A DNA stretch of 64,000 nt from Thecaphora thlaspeos (Eukaryota; Basidiomycota; Ustilaginomycetes; Urocystidales; Glomosporiaceae), in assembly GCA_900291925.1 (NCBI GenBank), contig UWYS01000030.1, forward strand, positions 186,001 through 250,000, written 5' to 3'. Below the pieces are notes generated by a model. That model had not been told where the DNA came from. It saw nothing but the letters and a program-made list of their open reading frames with translations, and searched no databases. Position numbers and translations under genes: made by a program. Below, one piece after another: positions 9,034-53,247 of this stretch (positions are counted from its first letter, which is position 1; every line of letters starts with the position of its first letter).

Positions 9034-12000
9034 ATGGTCTACCCGCGCAATCCCTACTCGACTCCAAATGTCAGCTTCTTTGGGGGCTCAGGCGGCAGCT
9101 CAAAGGCTAATGGCGCCAGTGTCAAGTTTGACCCGGCGCCGCACCCGGGCCTCATCAATCTCGGCAACACCTGCTTCCTCAATTCCGTCCTCCAGGCCAT
9201 GGGTGGGACGCGCCAGTTCAAGCAGCTCCTCCAGGGCCCCGCTGAGGAGCTCCAGGACCGCTTCGGGCAACCCTTTGACTCGAACAATGACGTCCAGTTC
9301 GACTGGACCAGGCGGGCCCAGTCGCCGGCCCTGCGCGTTCGCGATGAGGAGCACGGGAAGCTACCGCCGCACCACCAGGCCACGATCAACCATTCAACAA
9401 TGGAAAGGGGCAGCCTCGTCGATGGCGCCGCTACAATGAACCCGAAGCGGGAGACGGTCGACTCCGCAGCATTCGCTCCGCACGAGCCGACCGTCATCGA
9501 CCTGCCGCTCAACACCGCCCTCCGGCACACGCTTGAGAAGATCTGGGGCAGCTCCAACAACCTCCGCGGGCCCAGCATCAATCCAAAGCGCCTTGTCACC
9601 CTGCTCGGCGCAAAATACGACCAGTACCTCGAGTATGGCCAGCAGGACAGCCACGAGCTGATGCGCCACCTGCTTGATGCCTGCAGAATGGAAGAGATGG
9701 ATCTCATCAAGAAGATGCAGCCGCTAAAGCCGTCCAAGAAGGCGAGGTCGCCGCAGCAGGCGATGACGACACAATCGGCGGTCGACGGCTGCGGCGGCGG
9801 CGGTGGCGATGTTCCGGAGCTCGTCTTGCAGCTCGGCGACGTGGACCGCGGCGAGGCGATCGCCGCGCCCATGTCCGTCGATGAGGCCGACCAGTTGGCT
9901 GTGGTTGCTGGCGAGGGGCAGCAGCCGGACCCGAACAGCGACGTGACGACAGCGCAGGCCGCGCTGAGCGCGGCCAGCACGCCCGAGGAAGCTCTTTTGC
10001 CCTTCCTCGACATGCTTTTCTGCGGCAGGCTGGCCAGCATGATCGTTTGCGAGAGCTGCAAGAAAGTCTCGCACACCTACGAAGACTTTTTCGATCTCAG
10101 CCTGAGCATCCGCGGCGAAGTGGACACCAAAGTCAAGAAGGTGAGTTGATGTTGTCCTACGAAAGCGGAACGCGGGCCGACTGCGTCGCCTTGTCAGGAT
10201 GGCTCGTCCGTGCTGCGAGAAGGTTACGCTGACCTCAAATCTTTCCTGCTCCGGTCACAATATACGCCTGCCTATAATTGCCTTGTCACGCTGCGACCAG
10301 CGCGATCGCATCCGCAGCATGGCGGACCGCTGGAGGCGGGCCACGCAGGGCAAGGCCATCGAAAAGTCCAAGCTGCACGACTCGACGGGCGCCGCCTCGA
10401 CGACGCCGATCGCCACGCCGGTGTTCAGCGAGACTGAGACGAGCGACGTCGAGGGCAAGAAGCCGCAGAAGAAGCGCACCAGCTTCCTTTCGACGGGCGA
10501 GGAGAGCAAGACGCGCTTCTCGCTCCGCACGCGCAGCATCACCCGGAGGCCGACGACGACCACGAGGGCCGAGAAGCTGGGCGCCACCTCCGGCAGCGAG
10601 ATGGAGCCGGACTTTCCGGACGTGGCCTCGCTCGCCCTTGCACCTTCGACGCGGGCGCGGCAGCTCGTCGTAGACTCTGCGCCTCCCTCGGCGGGCGAAG
10701 AGGACGGCGATGCGCGCACCCATACGCGCCTGCCCCGGATGCTGGCGCCCCACGAGAATGGCGGCGGAGGAGGAGGAGAGAGCAGTCGAGAGCCCAGCCC
10801 CGCCCCGCCTGCGAATGGTCGAGCGCCTCCACCCGCACTCAACGGAGTCGGCGGCGCAGCACCCGCAGCGGCGACGATGTCCTCGCACCAGGCGGCCTAT
10901 ATTGATCGGATCTTGGCCGAGGATGCGGTTCCGGCGCCTGCCTTACACGGCCTTCCGCGCAGGCCGGCCACCGCGTCGGAGTCGCTGTCGGATGTTGTTA
11001 GCCAGGCATCTGCAGCAAACGGGCGGCCCTTCCAGGGTCTTCACCGTGGTTTTACCACCCGTGGCCCTCGCACGAGCGCGCTGAGCGAGTTTGAGACCGA
11101 CCCGGGCTCGCCGTCGGCCAAGAGGCGCAAGCAGATTCAAGAGGAGCAGAAGTCGACCGGTCTGATCGCGGCGCTGCGCCAGTTTACTAGCGTAGAGGTG
11201 CTCGACGGCGACAATAGCTTCGCCTGCAAGAACTGCTGGCGGCTCCAGAACCCGCCCAGCGCCAGGGAGCGGGAGCGCTACCGAAGGAGGAAGGAACGAC
11301 GCGGGCTGAGGCCAGGGTCGGATGATGAAAGCGAGCCTAGCAGCTCCGAGGGTGGCTCCGAGTCCGGTGATGAAGGGCAGGATATCAACGGATCGACGAG
11401 GATCAACGGCCCGCGTACGCCCACGGTGAGCCGCCAAGCTTTTGTCGAGCACGGTGGAGAAGAGACGCGCAGCGGCGAGACGACCGCCACGGAGCTGGCG
11501 CCGAGGCGCTTCAACGCCTCGATCCCTACGATTACGACGCACGCCGGGACGCCTCCCGCAATCGAACCGTCCGAGATGAAGCAGCTCGGCCTCAAGGGCC
11601 AGCCGGGCCAGACACCGAATAAGCTCGCGGCGCCCCAGTGGGACGAGCACGGCTACCGACCGCCGGACTCGCCCATGGCGACGTCCAGCTACGCCTCCGA
11701 CTCGAACCTCAGCGCCGGCGCCAGCGGCTACGACACCGGCACCGAGACCGACCAATCTGGCGCGGCAACCAGTCTCGACTCGGAGACCGGCCTCGATGAC
11801 GAGAGCGACGCCGAGGGCGAGGCGAGGCTGCCGGGTGCCCCCGCCAAGCCAAAGGGCCCCAAGCGGTCAACGCAGAGCCTTCCGCGCCGCGCGCTCAAGC
11901 GCTACTTGATTGCGTCGGCCCCGCCCGTGCTGGTGTTCCACCTCAAGCGTTTCCAGGCGACGGGGCGCGGCTTCGTCTCGGGCCTTGCCGGCTTAAAGAA

Positions 12001-13318
12001 GATCGACGACCAGGTCTCGTTCCCCGAGTATCTCGACGTCACGCCGTGGCTGGCGCCTCCGCGCGAAGAATACGACCGCAAGGGGCGCCTCAAGGGCAAC
12101 AGCGATCCGCTCGTCCTGCGAAAGCGGGCCGAGGAGGAGGCGAGGCGGGCCGGTATGGATGTCAAGGACGTCCAGGTGCAGGTCGAGAGCCACGAGGCGA
12201 TGCGCAGACGGGGTCGACACCGGCACGGCCACGGGCATGGACGCCGCGAGGGTGCGGTGGCAGGAGACAAGGGGTTGGCGGGTAAGCGGCACTCGATGTG
12301 GTCCTGGACCGCCAAGAATCGCTGCTACAGCCCCGGCCCGTCCGGCGCGGGCGATGCGTTCATCGAGGAGGCCGAAGAGGTCCAGGAAGGGCCCCGCGTC
12401 AAGCAGGGCGATCGCGAGATTCTGCCCAGCGTCGTCTCGCGGCCCAAGACGCAGTATCGACTCTACGCCGTCATTGTCCACCAGGGATCCCTCTCGGCGG
12501 GCCACTACACTGCCTACGTGCTCTCGGACAAGGTCCGATTGAGCAGCGAGGAAAAGGCCGCCCTCGCTCTCACCGCGACCGTCACGCGCTCCGCGCCCGC
12601 GAGCCGCGCCAACACGCCCGCCACGCCCGTCGAGCCGCGGCGGGAGAGGCGGCGATCGACCCAGCTGGCTGAGGCGCCTTCGCTTCAGCCGCTCTCAGAG
12701 GCCGGAGCTGGGGAGGTCAAGGACGAGACAGCAGCAGCGGTACCACCTCCGCCGACCACATCTGCCGGGGACATCAGCGTACTGTCGAGCAGTGGCAGCA
12801 GCAGCAAGAGCAGCAGCAGCGGTGTTGCCAACCCCGCTGTCGCCTTGGCCGTCACACCAGGAGGAGCACCGCCGCTCCTGCAACCCAAGCCTCAGCCCGC
12901 CACGATGCAGGCCGACTTCCTGCGTCCACAGACATCGATTTCGTCCATGGGTTTGCTGGACAGCGAAGCATCGATTCACAGCGGCCTGGACGCCCACCAG
13001 CCTTCGGCGGCATCCGAGACGTCCTCAAACGGCAACGGAAGAGGCAGCGGAGCAGCCGCCGCCACCACCAACTCGTCGGCTGAATCGCTCAAGGCGAAAG
13101 CGACCGAAGCGCGACCGCCGAGCAGCGCGTCTGCTTCTGCAGCTGCGGCCCGGGCATCGAACAACTCTCGCGCGGTGGCAAAGCCCGACGAAGGCGGCGC
13201 ACCATCGGCAGACGACGGGCGGAGATGGGTCTACACCTCTGACACCGTGGTCTGGGCTGCGACAATCGACGAGGTGCTCAAGGCGAAAGCATATATGCTC
13301 TTCTACGAGCGTGTATAG
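9034..13318 (+). CDS. Ubiquitin-specific protease (USP/UBP, peptidase C19; USP16/45-like)
   Basis: Cysteine protease that removes ubiquitin. Exon 1 is 9034-10140. A 160-nt intron (10141-10300, GTGAGT...CAG) joins in phase 0 to exon 2, 10301-13318. The product is 1374 aa. The Cys box is GLINLGNTCFLNSVLQAM with catalytic Cys47. The QQDSHELMRHLLD motif follows at the end of the first subdomain. The His box is GSLSAGHYTAYVLSD with His1104, and the C-terminal box ends KAKAYMLFYERV. Two CxxC pairs (CESCKK and CKNCWR) mark the USP zinc ribbon. The two halves of the catalytic domain are separated by several hundred low-complexity Ser/Gly/Ala/Arg-rich residues, so the protein is much longer than a bare USP core (about 350 aa). 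USP16/45 kinship is a judgement from the layout; substrate unknown. Confidence 0.9.
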
Positions 13319-13818: not shown

Positions 13819-15828
13819 TCACCACAGCTTCCTCCTCTCTTCCTTCTCAGCCCTTGCCATACGTTTGTTTGCGCCCCAGCTCAACTTCCTAAGCTGGGCA
13901 TCGGCCTTCCTGCCTTCCTTGACCACCTTGGGAGCGGGCGCTACAATCTGGATGAAGAGAGGCGAGCATCCAAACACTTTCGCCAATCTACCCGCCGTGT
14001 TCTTGATCGGATCCTTGACTCGCAACGCCTGGACACGTGTGATCTGTTCCGACGTCAACATCTTCTTCGCCGCCGAGGAGGATGACGACTTGAGCAGAGG
14101 TGGCAGCATCGACTCATCGACCGTTGAAGCGGGAGATGGGGTAAGAAGGGGTTGAGCGATGAGAGTGGTAGAGCTGGCGGAGCCCGAGGTGGGGGGAGGA
14201 CGGACGATGAACGTCTCGCCCGAAGTGAGGGCGTGGCGGATGGCGTTGGGGCTGCTGTTGAGCGGGTCGCGAGGGCGGCGTGCGGGTGTGTTGCGCGAGG
14301 ATGCGGAAGAAGTGGCGAAACCGCGCTTAGAGCCGGGCAGGCTGGTGCTGCCAGTGAAAACGCTGGTGGTGCTGGTGGAAAAGCCGCGCTTGGCCGTACT
14401 GGCCACCGAGGCGGGCGGGATCACCGTCCCCCATCCCTTAGGACCCGCCCAAGAGCCCTTGACGTACGACTGGTAGTAGACCCACGGGAAGAAGTCCTTC
14501 TTGAGGTGGTAGAACGCTCGCCGCGGCGTCGCCTGGTCGATGCCAAAGAGCTCGCCGAACGTCTCCTTGGGCTGGCCGCCGTACTTGAACTCGGCCAGCA
14601 TCACCTTGCCGTACTCGGTCAGCAGCGGGCACGACGTGTAACCATCGTAATCGGCATCGGCCTCGTTTCCGGCCAGCGTCTGCGTCAGATTGCGCACCAG
14701 CACGGGCGCCTCGGCCGTGATGGCTGCGGCCGTTTTGGACGTCGGAAGGCTCGAGGCGTCGCCGATGGACCAGACGTTGTCGTACCGCTTGTGGCGCGTC
14801 GAGGCCTGGTCGACGTCGACGTACCCGGCGTCATCAGCAAGCGCGCTCTCGCGAACAAAGGCGTGCGGGCCCATCTTGGGCGTGACGTGAAGCAGGTCAA
14901 ACTGCTTGCGCACCGGCTCGGCGCCGTCCGGGCGCGCAAAGACGGCCGTGTTGCCGCCCTCGATGGCGACGAGGTCGTGCTGGAAGAGCCCACCGACGCC
15001 GCGCTCCTCGCGCAGCTCGTTAAGGCGCTGGCTGTACTTGGGGACGCCGAACATGACGGGCAGGCCCGTGACAAAGTCGATCGAGATGGCCGACTTGGAA
15101 GAGCCTGAGGGGTCGTAGAGTCCGGCCTTCTTCCAGTAGTCGAGCGCGAGCCACATGGCCTTTTGCGGTGCGCCGGCGCACTTGATGACGCCGGCGGGCT
15201 GTGTGAAGATGGCGTTGCCGGCCTTGAGCTTCTCGATGGTGGCAAAGAGCTTGTCGCACGTCTCGTAACCGTAGATGGACGAGACGAGCGAATCGGGGTC
15301 GCTCAACGCGTCGGGAAGGCCCTTGACCGAGCCAAAGTCGATGCCGATGCCGGGGACGACGACAAGCTGGTCGTAGCTGATCGTGTCGCCGTTTGCGAGC
15401 GTAATGGTGTTGTCGTTGGGCAAGAAAGCCTGAACGGAGTCGGCGTAGCGTTTGAGCTTGGGGTCGAGGAGACTCTTGAGGGGCCTGCGGAGGTCTTCCT
15501 TGTTCTTCAGGCCCGCGCCGACGAGAGTCCACCCGGGCTGGTAGTGATGCCACTCGGAGGGGTCGATGACGGCGATGTCGTCCTGACGGAAGCCGTCGGC
15601 GTTGAGGAGCTGGTGGCTGACCGCCATGCCGGCCGACCCGCCGCCGACAACGACCACCTTGTGGCTGCGGCTACCGGACGCAGCGTGGCTGGTGGGCGTC
15701 GACGTCGACGAGGCAACGGTGGCGAGGCTGCGGGCTGCTGCTACGGTTGCCGTCGGGAGGGCTGCTCGCTGCTGCTGCTGCTGAGCCAGCGGTCGGAGCA
15801 GCTGCTTTGTCGCGGTGAAGCGCTGCAT
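13819..15828 (-). CDS. Fusion: sulfide:quinone oxidoreductase + mitochondrial ribosomal protein mL58
   Basis: One intronless frame of 669 aa holding two unrelated mitochondrial proteins. Residues 1 to about 475 are a sulfide:quinone oxidoreductase like S. pombe Hmt2. It has an Arg/Ala/Gln-rich presequence after MQRF, the FAD motif GGGSAG near residue 58, redox cysteines Cys217 (KCAGAPQK) and Cys400 (YTSCPLL), and SIGDASSLP near the flavin. It oxidises sulfide and reduces ubiquinone at the inner membrane. Residues from about 505 to 669 are mL58 (yeast Mrpl20): SGETFIVRPPP, LTSEQITRVQALRVKDP, FGCSPLFIQIV and a basic tail ending ERRKLW. The Ser/Thr-rich linker carries KRGF-STS (Arg481) and KRGF-ATS (Arg502), which resemble matrix-peptidase sites. 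There is no stop or Met between the modules to start mL58 separately. Start ATG 15828 is chosen for the presequence; the frame stays open upstream without a better ATG. Confidence 0.93.
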   Translation of the reverse strand: MQRFTATKQLLRPLAQQQQQRAALPTATVAAARSLATVASSTSTPTSHAASGSRSHKVVVVGGGSAGMAVSHQLLNADGFRQDDIAVIDPSEWHHYQPGWTLVGAGLKNKEDLRRPLKSLLDPKLKRYADSVQAFLPNDNTITLANGDTISYDQLVVVPGIGIDFGSVKGLPDALSDPDSLVSSIYGYETCDKLFATIEKLKAGNAIFTQPAGVIKCAGAPQKAMWLALDYWKKAGLYDPSGSSKSAISIDFVTGLPVMFGVPKYSQRLNELREERGVGGLFQHDLVAIEGGNTAVFARPDGAEPVRKQFDLLHVTPKMGPHAFVRESALADDAGYVDVDQASTRHKRYDNVWSIGDASSLPTSKTAAAITAEAPVLVRNLTQTLAGNEADADYDGYTSCPLLTEYGKVMLAEFKYGGQPKETFGELFGIDQATPRRAFYHLKKDFFPWVYYQSYVKGSWAGPKGWGTVIPPASVASTAKRGFSTSTTSVFTGSTSLPGSKRGFATSSASSRNTPARRPRDPLNSSPNAIRHALTSGETFIVRPPPTSGSASSTTLIAQPLLTPSPASTVDESMLPPLLKSSSSSAAKKMLTSEQITRVQALRVKDPIKNTAGRLAKVFGCSPLFIQIVAPAPKVVKEGRKADAQLRKLSWGANKRMARAEKEERRKLW

Positions 15829-20767: not shown

Positions 20768-23700
20768 TTACACTGCCGGGGCGCTTGGCGGCGGCGGCGG
20801 CGCAGGTGTTGGTGAAGGCGCCGCCGGTACAGGAACATCCCTTCGTAGACCGCCCAAGAGCCCTCCGAGGATGTCGCCTGGTGCGGACGTCGCACCCGCG
20901 ACGGCACTGGTGATCGGATCGACGACCGAGCCAACGGCAGACGTAGCGGCCGACGCGCCGTCCGCCAGCGCTGGCGTGGCCGACGAAAGAAGGTTGGTCG
21001 TGACGCTCGATGTAGCGGCGGAGGAGGTCGGGGTGGCGCCGGGGCAGTTGGCGTTGAGCTGGATCCCGTTGAGCAGCCCGCCAAGAAGGCCGGCCACTCC
21101 GGTGAGGCTGGTGAGCTCGCACACCACCGAAGCGGCCGTGCCCGTCAGTCCACCGAGCAGATCCTGGGATGAGAGACTGGAGAGGAGGTCTGCGATGCCG
21201 GGCAAGTCGCCGAGCCCGCCTAGGAAACCGATCAAGTCCGTCAAGCTGTTGACGATCGGGAAGGCGATGGGAAGCGGCGATGCGTCGAGGAAGTAGGTAG
21301 CCGACACGTTGAGCTCGCTGTACTGCAGTGCCGGGATCTGGTAGCTATCGCTGGTGCTCTGTCCGAGGTTGACCGTGATCTGGTTGTACAAATCGAGGTT
21401 CTTGCCGATGACATCCAGACTGCCGAGGAGGCCCTGGGTCAGGACGACGTCGGTCACCCTGCCCGACGTTGCTGTGCCGCCGTTGGGCGCGACTACGAGC
21501 GGAGTTGGGAAGGTGTAGCTGACCGTTGCGTCTGGATTGCTCGCGTCTCTCGGCTGCGAGCCGGCGATCTTGGCCGTTGTTTGCAAGGTGTCGATGTACA
21601 GGTTGGTATCAAGATCGTTGACGACCGCAATGGTGATCTCGACCATGGTCGACGTGGCCGCCTGGCCGAGGAGCAAGTTGCTGATGCCCGTGATCAGCGT
21701 CTCGAGGCCGATGTAGACGTTGACCTGCGTCACGATCCTCAAGCCGACGCCGTTGAGCGTCGTCGTCAGCTTGACGCCGGCCAGGGCGGGGCGCAGCGAG
21801 TCGTAGGGCGTGAGGTTGGTCTGAGGACCCTGCGTGCCGTCGATGACGAGGTCGGCAGACTGTGGGCTGGTCCCGTCACTGAGCGAAGGCTGCACGTACC
21901 GCGTGAGCAACTCCTGGGCCGTCGTTTCGTTGGCGTTGGTCGGTGCGTAGTAGAAGTATGACTGGACCAGGTTGTCTCCCGGGATGAGCCCAAGCACAGG
22001 GATCTGGGCTCGACCAACGAAGACGTTGCTGAAGAGGACGGGAAGGAAGACCTCGTTGGTGAAGACGGTGAGGTTGGACGGGTTGAAGAGCGTGACCTTG
22101 AGCGGAACCCAGAGGAAAGCGGGCGCGCCACTGCTGACCGAGACGTCCGACAGCGTGGTGACGCCGTTAAAGCTATTGATGCCGGTGAGGGTCGTGGTGA
22201 CGTTGATTGGGATCCCACCAATCGGGATGTTGCCGATGACGGTCTTGGCGACGACGTCGGTCGATCCGCGCAGGTCGAATGTCCCGCGCGGCGTGTCGGT
22301 GAGCTGAGCAAAGAAGGCCTGGAAGTTGGGCCGGTCGCCGGCGACAAGAGGTACGTCGCGCCACATCAGCTGCAGGATCTGGAAATCGGACGGTCCGCGC
22401 GACGTCCCCGCCTCGACGTTGGCGAGCGGCAGGTCGAGCGCGGCCGTGTCGCCGCCGTTGTAGACGATCTGAATCATGGGCGCCGCTTGGATCGGCTGGA
22501 GGCTGAACATGAAGGGGTTGGCGAACGTCGCGATCGTCGAGTTCGAGCTCGAGGGGATCGTGTACGAATCGTCGGGCGCGCCGTTGATCATGACCGTCAG
22601 ATCCGAGATGGTGATCGAGTAGATGATCTTGTAGATCTTGCCGGGCAGCAGGGCGTCGAGCGTCAGCGTCCGGAAGGCGGCCGAGAGCCAGTTGACCGGC
22701 TGGTTGCCGTTGGCTGCCGTGACGACCGAGACACCCTTGACCTGGAGCGTCTGGTTCCTGCCCTGGAGGAAGTTGGTGAACAAGATACCCGTGTTGGCTA
22801 GCCCCGTGCCGGACTTGGCGGTGATCTGCCCATACAGCTCGGTCGTCGTCGTCGTGAGCGCGGCGAGGAAGAGGTTGCGCGAGTTGACGGGTCCGATGTC
22901 GGTGCCCATGAAGAAGATCTCGAAGTTGGCCGTGTCGAGCTGGATACCGAGCGTCGCGGGCGACGGGATCCTCGCGCCTGTCTGGATAATGAACGCGTTG
23001 CTCGTCTCGCCGGGAATGTCAAAGTCGAACGTCTCGACGCCTGGCAGGTTGTTGAACGCCCTGAAGTCGATCGTCTTGGAGATGATGACGTTGCTGAAGG
23101 CGATGCCGAGCGCGCGGACGCGAAGCTTCTTGGAGCTGACCGTCCACTGGAAGCTCGGGTTGTGCAGAATGAAGGTGGCAAAGTCGGTGAAGCGGGCGAG
23201 GTTGGTGATGACAAGCGTGCCGGACGTGACAAGGTCGGGGACGCCGACGTTGGCGAACGCGCAGATTGGCGGGAGCGAGAGCGTCGCGATGTTGCTGCCC
23301 TGCCAGTTGACGATCAGCGGCTCGGGGAACTCGATGTAGGCGTCAAACGGTCCGGTCCCAAGCAAGGCGCCCTGGAGGTCGACCTTGAAACCATTGTTGG
23401 TGACATCGGTGACGTTCGCGATTGCGACCGTCAGCGTCGCCTGATTGACGAGGTTCTGGACGATCGGGGCGCCGGCGGGTCCGAGCAAGTAGAGAGCCGT
23501 GTTGTCCGTCTTTGTCGGGACGGGCTGCTGGACAAAGTTGAGGTCGGTCTGATAATCGTCGAGCTTGACGGTCGACTCGACGTTGAGCGTCGTGGTGAGG
23601 CCCTGGAGCAGCCTGAGGACGGCGCCCTGCACGTCGAACTGCGTCCCGGAGCTGCAGGGGGGCGTGCTGTCGTCCGGGTAGGGACTGACCGTGGTGTCGG

Positions 23701-26700
23701 TCGACTCCTGGGCCAACACCTGATCAAAGAGCGGCGGCAGCGGTCCAAGGTCGGTACCCGTGTTGGCGGCGGCGGCCGAGACGAAGCGGATCAGGTTCTT
23801 GGGGTCTAGATCGAACTTGAACGGCAGCGGGTATGACTCAATCGTCGTGTGGTCGGGCGCCGTGATGACGCGCGAGCGCAGGTTCTCGTTGATCTCGCCA
23901 AGGAAGATACCCTGGTACGAGGCGTCAGCCTTGACCTGAAGCAGGTTGATCGACGCCGTGAACGGGTTCTGCAGCTGGAAAGTGACCGAGGCATAGTTGC
24001 TCTGAGCGATGTCCTTGGGGATTACCAGGCTGGCCTGGATGATGAGCAACTGGTTAAGCGGCGGGATCGAGGCGGCCAGGCTGATGCCCGAGAGCGCCTG
24101 CTTGAGCGACGCGATCGGCGTCGTGTCCTGCGTCCCTTGAATGATGGTGTCCGAGACGATGCCCTGGACGTAGTTCTCGAGCAGCAGCTGGCCGGCGGCG
24201 ACGTTGGCAGCGCCCTGCGGCGAATACCTGACGTCGGTGGAGACGCGGTTCTCGCCGGGGACGAGGACGAGGTTGTAGATGTTGGCCGTTCCGATCTTCC
24301 TGCCCATGAAGTAAAGGTCGAAGACGACATCGCCCGTTCCAATGGTGATGTCCGACGGGTTGAAGAGCGTCGCCGTGATCTTGATCAGCAGGTAGCTCGG
24401 GTAGCCGTGGAAGACGTCGAGATCCGAGACGGTGACGGGACGAGCATTGAGGTTCTGCAGACCCAGGATGTTCGTGTCAACGTCGAAGGGGATGCCGGTG
24501 ATCGAGACGAGGCCGGCGGCGGTGTTGGCCTTGGTGTCGGTGCGGCCATTGAGGTTGAACGTCACCTCCGTCCCGGCCGTCGTGTCGGCGAGGAACTGCG
24601 AAAAGGTCGGGTGCTGGTCGTCGTAGACGGCAAAGGGCACGTTGGTGAACATCAGCGTCAGGATGCGCGCGACGATGTCGGTGATCGACGGCGAGAGCGG
24701 GATGTCGAGCACGGCGACGTCGCGGTCTTGGTAGTTGGCGATGAAGCCGCCGCCAACCTGCTGAATGTCGATCGGAAACGCGAACGGAATGAAGAACGCG
24801 GCCGTCGTGTTCGATGAGCTCGTCGACGGCGACCACGCGGTCGCCTGGGTGAAGAAGAGCGACAGCTGGTTGAGGCTGATGCTCCGGATCACGGTGAACT
24901 TCTGCGATGGCAATCCGACGATGACCGAGAGCACCTTGATGCCCTCGTTGAGCCAGGTCACCGACTCAGGGCCAGCGTAATCGCCGTTGATGGTGACGTT
25001 AGTGTTGATGTTGCCAACAAAGTTTGTGAAGATTTGGGATAGCGCCGCTAGGCCGGCATCGGTCGTCTGCGGGATGAGGCGGCCGACCAGCGGAAGCGTC
25101 GTTACCGCGAGCGCCTGCAGGACAAACTCTGACTCGGCCGCCGACGGCCCGATGTAGCTGTCGTTTAGCGTGATGCCGACGCCGAAGCGGCTCAGCTGAA
25201 CACCAACCTGGGCCGGGTTGTAGATGGTCGTGTCGGCGGTCAGGTGGATGCCACCGACGGGGTCGTTCGAGGGAAGGTCGAACGAGTTGATGATGACGCT
25301 ACCCTTCAGGCCGTTGAAACCGCTGAGGATGACGTCCTTGGAGATCGTCACGTTGGGGACCGCGATGCCGAGCGCGCCGACCGTGAGGCCCTTGCCGGCA
25401 ATGTTCCAGACGAAGCTGGGCTGTGTGAGGAGGTGCTTTGTGAATTCGGTGAGGTACGCGACGTCGGCGACGGCGAACTGCGCCTCGAGCTCGAGCGTCG
25501 CACCGACGTCGCCAGCCAACGAGACGTTGGGGAAGGCAATCTGACCGAGCGGACGTCCCTCCCAGGAGATGGTCAGGCCCTCGGTGAACTGGATCATCGC
25601 GTCGAACGGTCCCGCGTTGGTGATGGTGCCCTGCAGCGCGGTGGTGAACGAGTTGAGCTGCGGGTCGAGGATCGTCACGCGGTCGATGGCGAGGATCGCG
25701 CCGTCGACAATCTTCTGCACGATCGGACCGGCCAGCACGGGCAGCAGCTTGTTGAGCGTGACGTCGGTTCCGAGCGGAACATTGGTCTGAGCAAAGGTGA
25801 GCGCAGTGCTGTAATCGCCAATCATGGTATCCGAAGCGATCTCGAGGTTGGCCGTAGCGCCGGCAAAGGCGTGATCGACATAAGACGGCAGGTCGAAGCC
25901 GGTGTAGAGGTTGTCGCGCTTCTTCAGCAGCGCCTCGCGCACCTCGCGCGTCGAGAGCGCCGCCTTGGCGGGCAACTCGGTCTTGATGAGGTCGTCGTCG
26001 TCGTCGTCGCGCTTGACGTAGCGCCAGACGGTCGCCTCCTCCTCGTGCTCCTGCATCTCGGCCAACATGGCGACGTTGTTGCCGACGCCGACCAGCGCCT
26101 GTCCAACTTCGTCGTCCTCGAACAGGTCAAACGTGTCGACTGCCTGGTCGCGAGCGGCGCGCTTATCGAGCGATCTCCGGGCGTTCGTGTTGGCCTTGGT
26201 CGAAGGCGTCAGCGTGTAGCCGCCGAGTTGGACAACTCCGTCAATGTAGGCGGGGTCCTGGCCTGACTGGACCGCGAGCGCGCGCACCAGTCCGAAGATG
26301 TCCGGCGGATATAGGTTAAGGTTGAGCGGGATCGCCGGCGACTGCGTTGTCGCCTTGCCCGCCGCGACAAAGTTGAGCGGCGTGTCGATGCTAGCAACAA
26401 AGATGCCGTGCGAGGTGACGTTGGAGCGGATGCGCGTGATGGTCAGCGGCGAGGTGAACGGGTTTGCCAGGAAAACGACCGAGTTGGCGACGTCGTCGAC
26501 GATGCCTGTGGTGTCGAGCACGGTCAGATTGGCCGTCTTGACCAGAGAGCTCGTCAGGCCGGGCAGCGTCGCGTTGAGCCGCAGCGCCGAGAGAGCGGGC
26601 ACGAGTGACTCGACGGCGCTGCTGCCCTGGAAGCCGTTGATGTCGAGCAGCGTGTCCTGACCCGAAATGAAGCGGTTGAGCGTCTCGTAGCCCTCAGGGC

Positions 26701-28650
26701 TGACGTTGGGGCTGAAGACCGAGGTGGCATTGATGTCATTGCGGCCCTGCATCAGGTTGAGGTTGGGCAGTGTGACGGTGCCCAGGGTTGCGCCATCCTT
26801 GGCCAGCTGCAGGACACTGTCGCCGATGCTGAGGTTGAGGTTCGATGGGTTGACGAGCGTCGTTCCGACGACGAGATTGATGCCGTCGCGGGTGCCGCCC
26901 ACCACGTCGACCGTGTTGATGATGGTCGGGTAGGCGGTGAGCCCCTGGAGGCCAAGGATGCCGCTGTCGACGTCAAAGATGATGCCGTTGAGCAGGACGC
27001 GGCCGAGTGGCGTGTCGGTCAGAGCGCGCGCCGCACCCTGGAGCCGGATGCCCGTTCCGTCGCTGAAGGTGAAGAACTTCTGGAAGTTCTCGAGCTCCGT
27101 CTTTGCCGCTTCGGTCTGGTTGGGCGGCGTCAGCAGCGAGGGCGCCAGGGTGAGGTCGAGCGTGCCCGCCGTCTGGCCGGCGCTGATCAGGCTCAGCCTC
27201 GTCGTCGAGTTGGAATAGGCTCCCTCGATCGTCCCGACCTGGGCGCCCTCGTACAGCAGCGTGATGGTGTTGGCCGTGCTGACAATGCTGAGCGAGAAGC
27301 CAAACGGCAGGCCGAGCGTCGCCGAGAGGGCGCTGGAAAAGACCGTCGGCATGTAGGCCGTCTCGGGCGTGTAGATGAGGGAGAGCGAGCCGATCGTGAT
27401 GCTCTTGATCGGTGTGATGGGCTCCGGCGCCTTGAGCGGGACGGCGATGACGAGGGCCGTGATGCCTTCCGAGAGCCAGGCGACCTTGGAGCCGTCTGCC
27501 TGCGTCGCTGAGACGCCGCGGGCCTCGGCAGGGAGCGTCTCGCCGTTGATGTATCCGGTGAAGAGCTCGCCGAGCAGGTCCAGCTCGGTCTGGTTGGTGT
27601 TGTGCGGCACCAGCCTGCCGTTGAGCGTGACGACATTGAGACCGGCGGTGACGTTGAGGTTGCTCGTCGACGCGGGCCCGAGGTACATGCCCTTGTAGAA
27701 GAGGTCAAAGGCGAGCGTGCCGATCTGGACGCCGAACGGCGAAGGATTGGTCAGCGAGGTCATCACCTGGAGCGTCACACCGCCGGCCGGATCGTCGCCG
27801 GGCAGCTGGAAGTCGAGGATCCCGACGTTCTCAAAGTTGTTGAAGCCCTTGATGATGATGTTCTTGGAAAACTCGAGATTCTTGTAGGTCGGCAAGAAGG
27901 AAAAGGCCTCGACGTGGACATTGCCGCAGCGCAGCTTCCAGGTGAACTCGGGCTGTGTGATGAGGAAGCGGGCGAACGAGCTGAAGGCCTCCTGGTCGTT
28001 GATGATGAAGTTGGATGCCTGCAAAGAGGTAGGTGCAGCGGCAGGAACAAGGGAGGGTGGGAAGGAGGGAACCGTACAGCAGAGTCAGTTCTGCCTCTCA
28101 TTCGATCGCGACGGCGAGGCGAGGCCTTGACCGCCACACTCACCTGCTTGATACGGCCATGGCCGGCGGCGACGCCGATGTAGTCGAGGTTGAACTGTCC
28201 CAAGTTGACCTCGCGCAAGCCCTCGTCCGGTGGCAGGGTCCAAAAGACCTGGACCGGCTCGCGGAAGTAGAGGTGGGCGGGGAAGATGCCCGTCTTCTTG
28301 ACCTGTCCCTCGAGCGTCAGCGGGAACGAGGCGTTGCCGGGCGACGTGATGTTGGAGGCCGAGACGTGCAGGCTGGCGGTGTGGAGCGCATGGTTGGCCA
28401 CGGCGTAGAGGACAGGGACGAGGGTGATGACGAGCGTGACGATGATGAAGCCGGGGACGATGAAGAGGCAGCAGTAGCCGAGCTTGCGCGAGAGGTACTT
28501 CTTCTCATAAGGGGTGCCGCGTGCCTTGAGGAAGCCGATGGGCTGGCCCGGCTGGAAGTAGCCGCCGGCCGCCGGAGCGCCACCGTCAAAGGTGGGGCTT
28601 AGCCCACCCCTGCGACGGAGGTTCTCGCGGGAACCATAGCCGTCTGACAT
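20768..28650 (-). CDS. Giant type II membrane protein with three DUF3712/LEA-2-like units
   Basis: Exon 1 is 28144-28650 and exon 2 is 20768-28018, joined in phase 0 over a 125-nt intron (GTGAGT...CAG). The product is 2585 aa. A short cytosolic N-terminus precedes one hydrophobic segment at about 58-84; everything after should be lumenal or extracellular. The lumenal part is built of three long units beginning near residues 170, 1018 and 1775. Each starts with a F(A/T)xFLLxxPxFxW-like motif, then an LxVxALG(I)A segment, a GFNN/GFNG-type motif and a PxxxxGVQL strand segment. The units are rich in NPS/NPF turns and N-glycosylation sites. The C-terminus is Ser/Thr/Ala-rich, then Pro-rich. DUF3712 domains occur in fungal vacuolar proteins including Tag1. 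Dibasic KR sites near the end of unit 1, beside an Asp run, could be processed. Exact function unknown; vacuole location is inference. Confidence 0.82.
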
Positions 28651-49763: not shown

Positions 49764-50722
49764 GTGACAGGAGAAACTGCGACGGTTGCGTCTGAGGATG
49801 GGGAAATGGTGGTGAGGGGGACAAGGTTCGGCGGGGGCGGGCCGCTTAAGTCTGAGGAAGGGACGGAGCTCGAGGCTCGGCGTGGTCTGTGCGCTCTCTT
49901 CTGCGCACGGCGTGCTGCTCCACCTGCCCCGCTTCCACCGGCAGGAACAAGGCCCCACGGACGGCACGTCTCGATCCCCCTCTCTCGGCCGACCCCCCTC
50001 GACCTCTCGCCACTCCTTGATCATGTCACGGCATCACCCGTCTTTCGCAGTGTCCCTTCGGCTTCGCGCTTCGTAGTCGCAGGACCAGCTCGAGGCACAG
50101 CGACGTCGCAGGACGCCAACGTGGTCGAATGATTGGAACGACGCGTCCAGGATTAAGACGACCAACGCCAACGTCTCGCCGATCTGCTCCATCGTTGCAT
50201 CTGCAACAGCCGACAAGAGCTTCGTCTAGCGACTCATCATGGTGATCTTCGTGGCCAAGAACGAAGCGAGGTCGTCAAAGGACGACGTCACAACTCAGGC
50301 AAAAGCCCAAGAGGGCCAGGGAGGTTAGCTGTTAAATGCTGTTCGTGATTACTTCGTTATCTAGAGAAGGGAGAGAGAAATGCCGGTTGAATGCAAGAGC
50401 TATGGGAAAAGGGAGCTGGGTGACTTGGTATCATGTTGAAGAAATACAGAGGTCGATGGTGACCGTGGATGAGGGGGGGAGTGTGAGGAGACGAGCAACA
50501 CCAGGACATCGCTCGTTGAGGGGAAGGCCGGGACAAGTACAAGTTTCGAGAGATGCGGGGAAAGGGCCAGCTGGAAACCGGGGGGGGGGGAGAGAAGGCT
50601 CTTCAAACTTTCACATGGGGGAGACCGACGCCGAAGTCGGGGCAGTTGATGCCCGTATGCTGCGTGCGCGGACGGAAAGAGTGAGAAGGGGGGCGGAGAG
50701 GGAGGCGAGCAACACGACACGC
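49764..50722. other. Intergenic region, quinone reductase promoter and MET6 3' end
   Basis: Promoter and leader of the quinone reductase (-) and 3' region of methionine synthase (-). A run of 12 G lies at about 50580-50591. No additional gene supported. Confidence 0.5.
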
Positions 50723-53247
50723 CTAGGCGAGCGTCTTGCGGCACTCCTCGGCAGCGGCGACCATGTTCTGGAGCTGGGCGGTGCACTCTTCCCAGGTACG
50801 CGTCTTGAGGCCGCAGTCCGGGTTGACCCAGATCGAGTCCTTGGGCAGAACGGCGGCCATGGCCTTGACACGCTCAACCATCTCGTCCTTGTTGGGGACA
50901 CGGGGCGAGTGGATGTCAAAGACGCCGGGGCCGATGTGCGAGGGGTAGCCGACGCGCTTGAACGAGCCGAGCAGGTGCTCGCCCGACTTGGAGTGCTCGA
51001 TCGAGATCATGTCGGCGTCGAGCTCGATGATCGACTTCATAATCTGGTCAAACTGCGAGTAGCAGAAGTGCGAGGCAATGTTCATCGCGTCCGTCGCGCC
51101 CGACGTCGAGAGGCGGAACGAGTCAACCGCCCAGCGGAGGTAGCTGTCCCAGTCCTTCTGGCGCAGAGGGAGACCCTCACGGATGGCGGGCTCGTCGACC
51201 TGAACAGCGCGGACGCCGGCCTTCTCGAGGTCGATGACCTCATCGCGGAGCGCCAGGGCGATCTGCTTCGACTGCACCTCCTTGCTGATGTCGGCACGGG
51301 GGAACGACCAGTTGAGGATGGTGACGGGGCCCGTGAGCATGCCCTTCATGGCCTTCTTGGTGAGGCTCTGGGCGTACGACGACCAGCGAACCGTCATGGG
51401 CGCAGGGCGGCTGACGTCCGAGACGACAATCGGCGGGCGGACGTAGCGCGATCCGAACGACTGGACCCACGCGTTCTGCGTGAAGACGAAACCGTCGAGC
51501 AGCTCGCCGAAGTACTGTACCATGTCGTTACGCTCCGGCTCGCCGTGGACGAGGACGTCGAGGCCAAGGGCCTCCTGCCTCTCGACGACCATCTTGATCT
51601 CGTCCTCGAGGAACTTCTCGTAGTCGGCCTGGCTGATCTCGCCCTTGTTGAAGCGGGCACGGTACTGGCGGATCTCCTTGGTCTGCGGGAACGAGCCGAT
51701 GGTAGTGGTGGGGAAGATGGGGAGGTTGAGGTGCTTCTTCTGGATCTCCTTGCGCGTCTCGAAGGGCGACTGGCGGGCCAGGTCCTCGGGCTTGATGTTG
51801 GCGACGCGCTCGCGGACGGCGGGGTCCGAGTTCTTCTCAAAGTTACGGCGGGCCTTGATGCTCTTCTCGTTGGCCGAGAGGCGGTCGGCCGCGCTCGAGG
51901 GGTCGCGGAGGGCGGCGGCCAGCGTGGCGACCTCGCCGCACTTCTCGTTGGCAAACGAGAACCAGTCGAGGACCTCGGGCTTGAGCTTCTTCTCGTTGGC
52001 AACGGTGATGGGGGTGTGGAGGAGTGACGACGACGAGGCGATCTGGACGCGCGAGGCATCGCCACCGAGCGCCTTCACGGCCTTCTGCGCCGTCTCGAGC
52101 GCGGCCTTGAGGTCAGTCTTCCAGATGTTGCGGCCCGAGACGAGTCCGAGCGAGATGACGGTGTCCTTCCAAGCGAAAGCCGAGAGGACCTCGTCGAGCT
52201 GCTGCGGCGCACGGTCAAGATCGATGTGGAGACCGGCGACAGGGAGCGACTTGACAATCTCGATGTTGTCCTCGAGCTTGCCGAAGTAGGTGGTGAGGAG
52301 AAGCTTGGTCTGGGGGGCAGCCTTGGCGATGGTCTCGTAGGCGGCCTTGAACTCGGCGGCGTACTTCTGGGCAACGTCGAGGACGAGGACGGGCTCGTCG
52401 ATCTGGACCCACTCGGCGCCGGCGGCCGAGAGCTTAGCGAGGATCTCGCCGTAGACGGGCGCAAGCTTCGAGAGGAGCGAGACGGGGTCGAAGCTGTCGC
52501 TCGACGCGTCCTTGCCGGCCTTGCCCAGGGCGAGGAGGGTGACGGGACCGACGAGGACAGGGCGGGCGTTGTAGCCGGCCTCCTTGGCCTCGAGGAAGTC
52601 GTCGACGGGCTTGGTGTTGTTGATCTTGAATTCGGTCTTCTCGCTCAGCTCGGGGACGAGGTAGTGGTAGTTGGAGTCGAACCACTTCTGCATCTCGGTG
52701 GCGGGAAGGTCAACGCCGCCCTTCTGGTGGCCACGCGCCATGGCGAAGTAGGTGTCGAGCGGGTCGAGGCCGGCCTGGGCATACTGGGCGGGGATGAGGT
52801 TGAAGGTGTTGGAGGCGTCGAGAACGTGGTCGTAGAGCGAGAAAGTGCCGGTGGGGACGGTGTCAACGCCCTGCTCCTTGATCGACTTGTAGGTCAGCAG
52901 GCGCTGCTCCTTTGCGACCTTGAGGAGCTCCTCCTGCGAGGTCTTGCCGGCCCAGTAGGCCTCGAGGGCCTTCTTGACCTCACGCTGCGGTCCGATGCGC
53001 GGATAACCGAGAACGGCGGAAGTGCTGCGTGGGAGCGGAAGCAGGGCCAGGGTAGAGAGAGACAATCAAACAGAGGCAGGGTCAGAGTCGATTCGACGAT
53101 CTGTCTCCTTCGTCTACGGCAGTGCCTATACGAGACCAGGCCGTGCCAACCGCGCAATGCGGCCAGCAGCACCATCCTGTCGTCGAGGCGACAGACATCA
53201 CAGGGTCAGAAGGGGGCAAGAAGAGACGGAAATGGAACTCACGCCAT
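50723..53247 (-). CDS. MET6: Cobalamin-independent methionine synthase
   Basis: Transfers a methyl group from 5-methyltetrahydropteroyl-triglutamate to homocysteine, the last step of methionine synthesis, in the cytosol. Exon 1 is only 5 nt (53243-53247, ATGGC). A 218-nt intron (53025-53242, GTGAGT...CAG) follows, and exon 2 is 50723-53024. The product is 768 aa, the normal length, starting MATSAVLGYPRIGPQRE. The N-terminal barrel includes WVQIDEPVLVLD. The catalytic C-terminal barrel has TTTIGSFPQTKEIRQYR, LVHGEPERNDMVQYFGE, the zinc ligands His and Cys of ASHFCYSQ, the Glu in ISIEHSKSGEHLL, and the last Cys in WVNPDCGLKTR. The 5-nt first exon would defeat simple ORF callers. All key residues are intact. 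Confidence 0.97.

Follow-up and report, generated by a model that had tools for sequence, protein, structure and literature searches.

Both parts of the tandem precursor Arg5,6 of Saccharomyces cerevisiae serve arginine synthesis. Excerpts of PMC8847149 (citing Friedl 2020) describe how the mitochondrial processing peptidase (MPP) removes the Arg5,6 presequence and is also required for the internal cut. The same excerpts report internal targeting-like sequences and MPP sites, found in silico, in Rsm22-Cox11 and in two further composite precursors, Etp1 of Schizosaccharomyces pombe and Atp25 of S. cerevisiae and Emericella nidulans. In S. pombe, Rsm22-Cox11 joins a mitoribosome-associated protein and an inner-membrane protein in one precursor, which is cut after import so that Rsm22 is left in the matrix (PMC12375894, in excerpt). 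Here we describe a gene of the fungus Thecaphora thlaspeos that brings together a different pair. It lies in a 64,000-nucleotide stretch of contig UWYS01000030.1 (positions 186,001 to 250,000, assembly GCA_900291925.1; hereafter the window), and its single open reading frame (ORF) encodes a sulfide:quinone oxidoreductase (SQR) followed by the mitochondrial ribosomal protein mL58.

Etp1 and Atp25 are built from other domains. The locus resembles Arg5,6 in placing two mitochondrial proteins in tandem (PMC8847149, in excerpt), although SQR and mL58 have no known common pathway. Rsm22-Cox11 likewise links a mitoribosome-associated protein with a protein of the inner membrane; it consists, however, of a small-subunit factor and a copper-delivery protein, whereas here a large-subunit protein is placed after a flavoenzyme. 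Tandem precursors are therefore known as a kind, in keeping with the original prediction, which had likened the locus to mitochondrial polyproteins such as Arg5,6 and to which Rsm22-Cox11 can be added (excerpts of PMC12375894). That prediction also took the pair itself to be undescribed, and among the matches listed in the open-licence PMC literature we found no description of an SQR-mL58 fusion.

The frame runs on the minus strand from an ATG at 15828 to a stop codon at 13819-13821 and has zero internal stops. Its 669 codons had been predicted as one stop-free frame; the coordinates proved exact, and both domains are read in the same frame. Based on the domain matches, this one uninterrupted frame codes for two complete mitochondrial proteins. 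Within this assembly the fusion is genuine and, as judged from its sequence, biologically credible. Its features are as follows.

13819-15828, minus strand: entire ORF of the fusion, 669 codons and a stop, frame read from the sequence.
15724-15828, minus strand: putative presequence at the N-terminus, residues 1-35, with RSL↓AT at its end (residues 33-37; the arrow marks the presumed cut; motif consensus from excerpts of PMC8847149).
14437-15663, minus strand: SQR domain, residues 56-464, matched by the solved mitochondrial SQR (E 9.8e-87) and by four bacterial SQRs (40-43% identity).
15178-15180, minus strand: codon of Cys217, placed by alignment and presumably the first redox cysteine of SQR.
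14629-14631, minus strand: codon of Cys400, placed by alignment and presumably the second redox cysteine of SQR.
14275-14436, minus strand: linker, residues 465-518, Ser/Thr-rich and acid-free, a putative internal targeting-like sequence.
14374-14388, minus strand: first candidate processing site, RGF↓ST, residues 481-485, by motif match.
14311-14325, minus strand: second candidate processing site, RGF↓AT, residues 502-506, by motif match; the same motif occurs in an apparent F1-ATPase beta gene, L021.
13822-14274, minus strand: mL58 (MRP-L20) domain, residues 519-669, from the Pfam profile and solved chains.
14107-14109, minus strand: Met574, which is the earliest Met in frame beyond the SQR core and lies 55 residues into the mL58 domain.

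The SQR domain was identified by a phmmer search of solved chains, in which the match was 6mp5, 'Sulfide:quinone oxidoreductase, mitochondrial', which we take to be human SQR. Its flavin adenine dinucleotide (FAD)-binding start, VVVVGGGSAG, was found at residues 58-67. The end of SQR and the cysteines were placed with the four bacterial SQRs, which came from 18 pattern matches in a scan of genome contigs with the SQR half. Cys217 and Cys400 are invariant in this comparison. Past the residue equivalent to W460, the bacterial proteins run on for 10, 10, 11, and 16 residues. This suggested that the SQR C-terminus of the fusion is whole and that the first candidate processing site lies just beyond the natural end of SQR. 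The earlier call of a complete SQR, with both redox cysteines and the FAD motif, was borne out by the full-length match, and we regard this half, on its sequence, as a full-length SQR of the mitochondrial type, with sulfide-dependent quinone reduction as its predicted activity. SQR faces the matrix. It is described as an inner-membrane flavoprotein in excerpts of PMC11495197.

In three of the four bacterial genes, L063 (1096-2772), L064 (11-1561), and L066 (466-2667), SQR is preceded by a long N-terminal extension; the first two are close relatives of each other. The extension presumably resembles the DUF442 / Blh type. These genes are similar to the fusion in that SQR forms one portion of a longer frame, and they differ in that the extra part is N-terminal, bacterial, and without a known link to the ribosome. 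SQR may thus be prone to fusion.

The second half was matched by the Pfam profile MRP-L20 (PF12824) with 90 bits against a cut-off of 30.4, covering positions 4-164 of the 164 in the profile, and the E value for this half was 2.5e-25. Three distinct solved mL58/L20 chains were matched by sequence: 6ywe, presumably from Neurospora, and 5mrc and 3j6b, presumably from yeast. In-frame Met codons past the SQR core occur only at residues 574, 590, and 657, all within the mL58 domain. The profile is thus covered nearly in full and the first downstream Met falls inside the domain, which agrees with the earlier description of a complete mL58 lacking its own Met. We regard this half as full-length mL58/MRP-L20, with a predicted place in the large mitoribosomal subunit. 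Excerpts of PMC11345376 group mL58 with mL44, mL50, and mL57 as membrane-protuberance proteins of the fungal mitoribosome; according to the same excerpts, these proteins are absent from mammalian mitoribosomes and belong to the early assembly nucleus.

We searched the genome for further copies of either half. The search covered 20.6 Mb in 32 contigs of one assembly, which may be incomplete, and the best candidates were scored. The MRP-L20 profile and the whole fusion protein each identified one place, the fusion locus. A bacterial SQR query also returned the fusion locus (E 7e-86), followed by short fragments with E values of 0.005 and 0.015. Neither a second copy of the fusion DNA nor a separate SQR or mL58 gene was found in the assembly by these searches. 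A separate mL58 or SQR gene elsewhere in the genome had been named as a check on the fusion, and none that convinced us came to light. With a single locus for both parts, SQR and mL58, if the fungus makes them, most likely come from this gene. Of the 3 and 15 pattern matches that came from two scans of viral contigs, not one was confirmed as a relative.

To characterize the junction, we compared its composition with the rest of the protein. The fusion contains exactly two acid-free runs of at least 35 residues, residues 1-77 and 446-520. The first of these includes the N-terminus, where the first 46 residues have a net charge of +5 and RSLAT occurs at residue 33. We predict from these sequence features an N-terminal presequence on the SQR side; the presequence claimed earlier fits them and has the status of a prediction. 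The second run spans the linker, which is basic as well as Ser/Thr-rich. Excerpts of PMC8847149 give R-X-F/Y/L↓A/S-X as the motif that MPP and Icp55 together leave, and RX(F/Y/I/L)↓(S/A)(S/T) as the Icp55 consensus; RSLAT (33), RGFST (481), and RGFAT (502) all fit. Within the fusion, the strict motif R-x-[FY]-[AS] is confined to two sites, 481 and 502. When residues 465-520 were shuffled 100,000 times, at least two strict motifs arose in 304 shuffles and at least one in 10,095, while shuffling of the whole protein gave two strict motifs in that place in 3 of 5,000 cases. Among 16 other ORFs of at least 280 amino acids that were examined, two contained the strict motif, with 3 sites in all. An apparent F1-ATPase beta gene of the same genome (L021), recognised by eye from its sequence, contains ARGFATEAS right after an apparent intron and right ahead of the conserved part.

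The junction sequence RGFATSSAS also aligned weakly (E 0.042; query 13819-14439) with RGYATAVAAS at residue 25 of a further mitoribosomal protein, bL19m (chain M of the solved 6ywe). The alignment possibly reflects a mere shared presequence style.

Based on one frame with two full-length domains, a single genomic copy, the missing mL58 start, and the two junction motifs, we consider it likely that this nuclear gene encodes a mitochondrial tandem precursor that is cut by MPP and Icp55 into SQR and mL58. A single mRNA would be translated into a 72-kDa protein, whose import would be driven by the SQR presequence. MPP and then Icp55 would take off the presequence after RSL35 and would also cut the junction after RGF483, RGF504, or both. 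The released SQR would have 448-469 residues (48.2-50.3 kDa, isoelectric point (pI) 6.4-6.9) and would dock on the inner membrane, while the released mL58 of 165-186 residues (17.8-19.9 kDa, pI 11.3-11.4) would join the large mitoribosomal subunit. A cut after RGF504 leaves an mL58 of 165 residues, close to the 177-residue mL58 chain in 5mrc. Six matches to the M16 family and one to the AMP_N peptidase family were found in the genome, both families being wider than MPP and Icp55, which we take to belong to M16 and AMP_N, respectively.

Several observations weigh against this reading. Six sites of the fusion match a looser motif, R-x-[FYLI]-[AST], and both domains contain such sites; one of the six is the RSLAT of the presequence, and three lie at no expected cut site or within a domain. 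As DNA, RGF(A/S)T is not enriched in the genome, where it occurs at 30 places and the backwards control at 67 (T(A/S)FGR, with 51 places, did not serve as a control). Two of the 30 are in the fusion linker, and most of the 28 others are, by eye, at no recognisable protein start, F1-beta being the one clear mitochondrial case. The best helical hydrophobic moment of the linker is modest (0.37, compared with 0.31 in the first 46 residues). Furthermore, acid-free 46-residue windows with a net charge of at least +4 are also found elsewhere: 59 such cases were counted among 8,367 internal windows from other ORFs with 300 or more amino acids, some of them antisense.

The original prediction stated that the two proteins must part for each to work and that they come in equal amounts. 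The junction, which is free of acidic residues and has two sites that fit the MPP/Icp55 consensus, speaks for parting, which we infer; equal amounts could apply to synthesis and would reach no further. The reason given for parting, that one protein sits on the membrane and the other is built into the 54S subunit, is weaker than stated, because mL58 is itself counted among the membrane-protuberance proteins (PMC11345376, in excerpt). For the same reason, we retain as a minority reading a stable uncut fusion, in which inner-membrane SQR would be a covalent anchor for mL58 and hence for the large subunit or an early assembly intermediate. Such an anchor would sit where the ribosome meets the membrane. 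The linker, modelled without helix or strand, could bridge some distance; we give this little weight since the structure prediction, built with the four bacterial SQRs, is of low confidence (mean predicted local distance difference test (pLDDT) 45.1, linker blocks 22-27). A stable fusion is nonetheless unlikely, given the two consensus processing sites within the linker, the need for one SQR per large subunit that it would entail, and the reports that both Arg5,6 and Rsm22-Cox11 are cut (PMC8847149 and PMC12375894, both in excerpt). Slightly less likely still is that all or a lasting part of the fusion escapes cutting, with SQR as a built-in stoichiometric anchor of the mitoribosome membrane protuberance and with cutting that may be regulated.

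The halves could also be separated before or during translation, if one or both parts came from a transcript that is shorter or alternatively spliced or from a start within the mRNA; the product of the long frame would then be minor or accidental. A stop-free linker of 54 codons is expected from base composition with a probability of 0.38, so that an uninterrupted frame carries little weight by itself; the case for one gene is made because the two domains share a frame, mL58 is without a start codon, and there is no second copy of either. The strongest donor-like hexamer near the junction, GTACGT at 14467, falls within codons aligned to the solved SQR (SYVKGSW). No CTRAY branch site was found downstream of 14622, in the last 0.8 kb of the gene (CTCAC-type sites were not counted), whereas the apparent intron of the apparent F1-beta gene has, by eye, GTGAGT and CTGAC. 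The sole AUG in the linker, at 14434, is out of frame and starts a run of just 35 codons, and a start at Met574 would leave mL58 without the first 55 residues of its domain. Taken against the donor-like hexamer, the chance openness of the linker, and the out-of-frame AUG, these points leave separation ahead of or during translation improbable, a shade more so than a lasting uncut anchor, and splicing is judged unlikely. An assembly or sequencing error that fused neighbouring genes by deleting the stop and start between them is a very unlikely cause of the long frame, for although the fusion rests on one genome, the domains are 54 codons apart, a stop, 3' end, promoter, 5' leader, and mL58 start would all have had to be lost, and the GC content at third codon positions of the linker (0.78) is like that of the coding flanks and other segments of the ORF (0.72-0.89).

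A tandem precursor cut in the matrix would extend the known mitochondrial tandem precursors by an unexpected pair, again combining, as Rsm22-Cox11 does, a mitoribosome protein with an inner-membrane protein. An enzyme that oxidises sulfide and a ribosomal protein of the large subunit would be tied together in their synthesis, and the precursor would provide a natural substrate with two adjacent candidate internal MPP sites. Whether the halves separate matters because mL58 is counted among the membrane-facing proteins of the fungal mitoribosome that its mammalian counterpart lacks. Were the fusion instead to stay uncut, a sulfide-oxidising, quinone-reducing enzyme would be a stoichiometric ribosome component, which would be striking given the place of mL58 in the membrane protuberance.

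We also examined the neighbouring genes in the window. A ubiquitin carboxyl-terminal hydrolase domain is split across the plus-strand frames 9034-10149 and 10199-13318, and the two frames (9034-13318) probably belong to a single gene with an intron, which converges with the fusion gene. A Zuotin-like J-protein with a ribosome-associated-complex head domain was found at 889-2328. On the minus strand, an uninterrupted frame of 2331 codons at 20768-27763 contains five DUF3712 stretches. A cobalamin-independent methionine synthase is encoded at 50723-52741, also on the minus strand, opposite an open frame of 563 codons at 50336-52027 that is perhaps a by-product of high GC.
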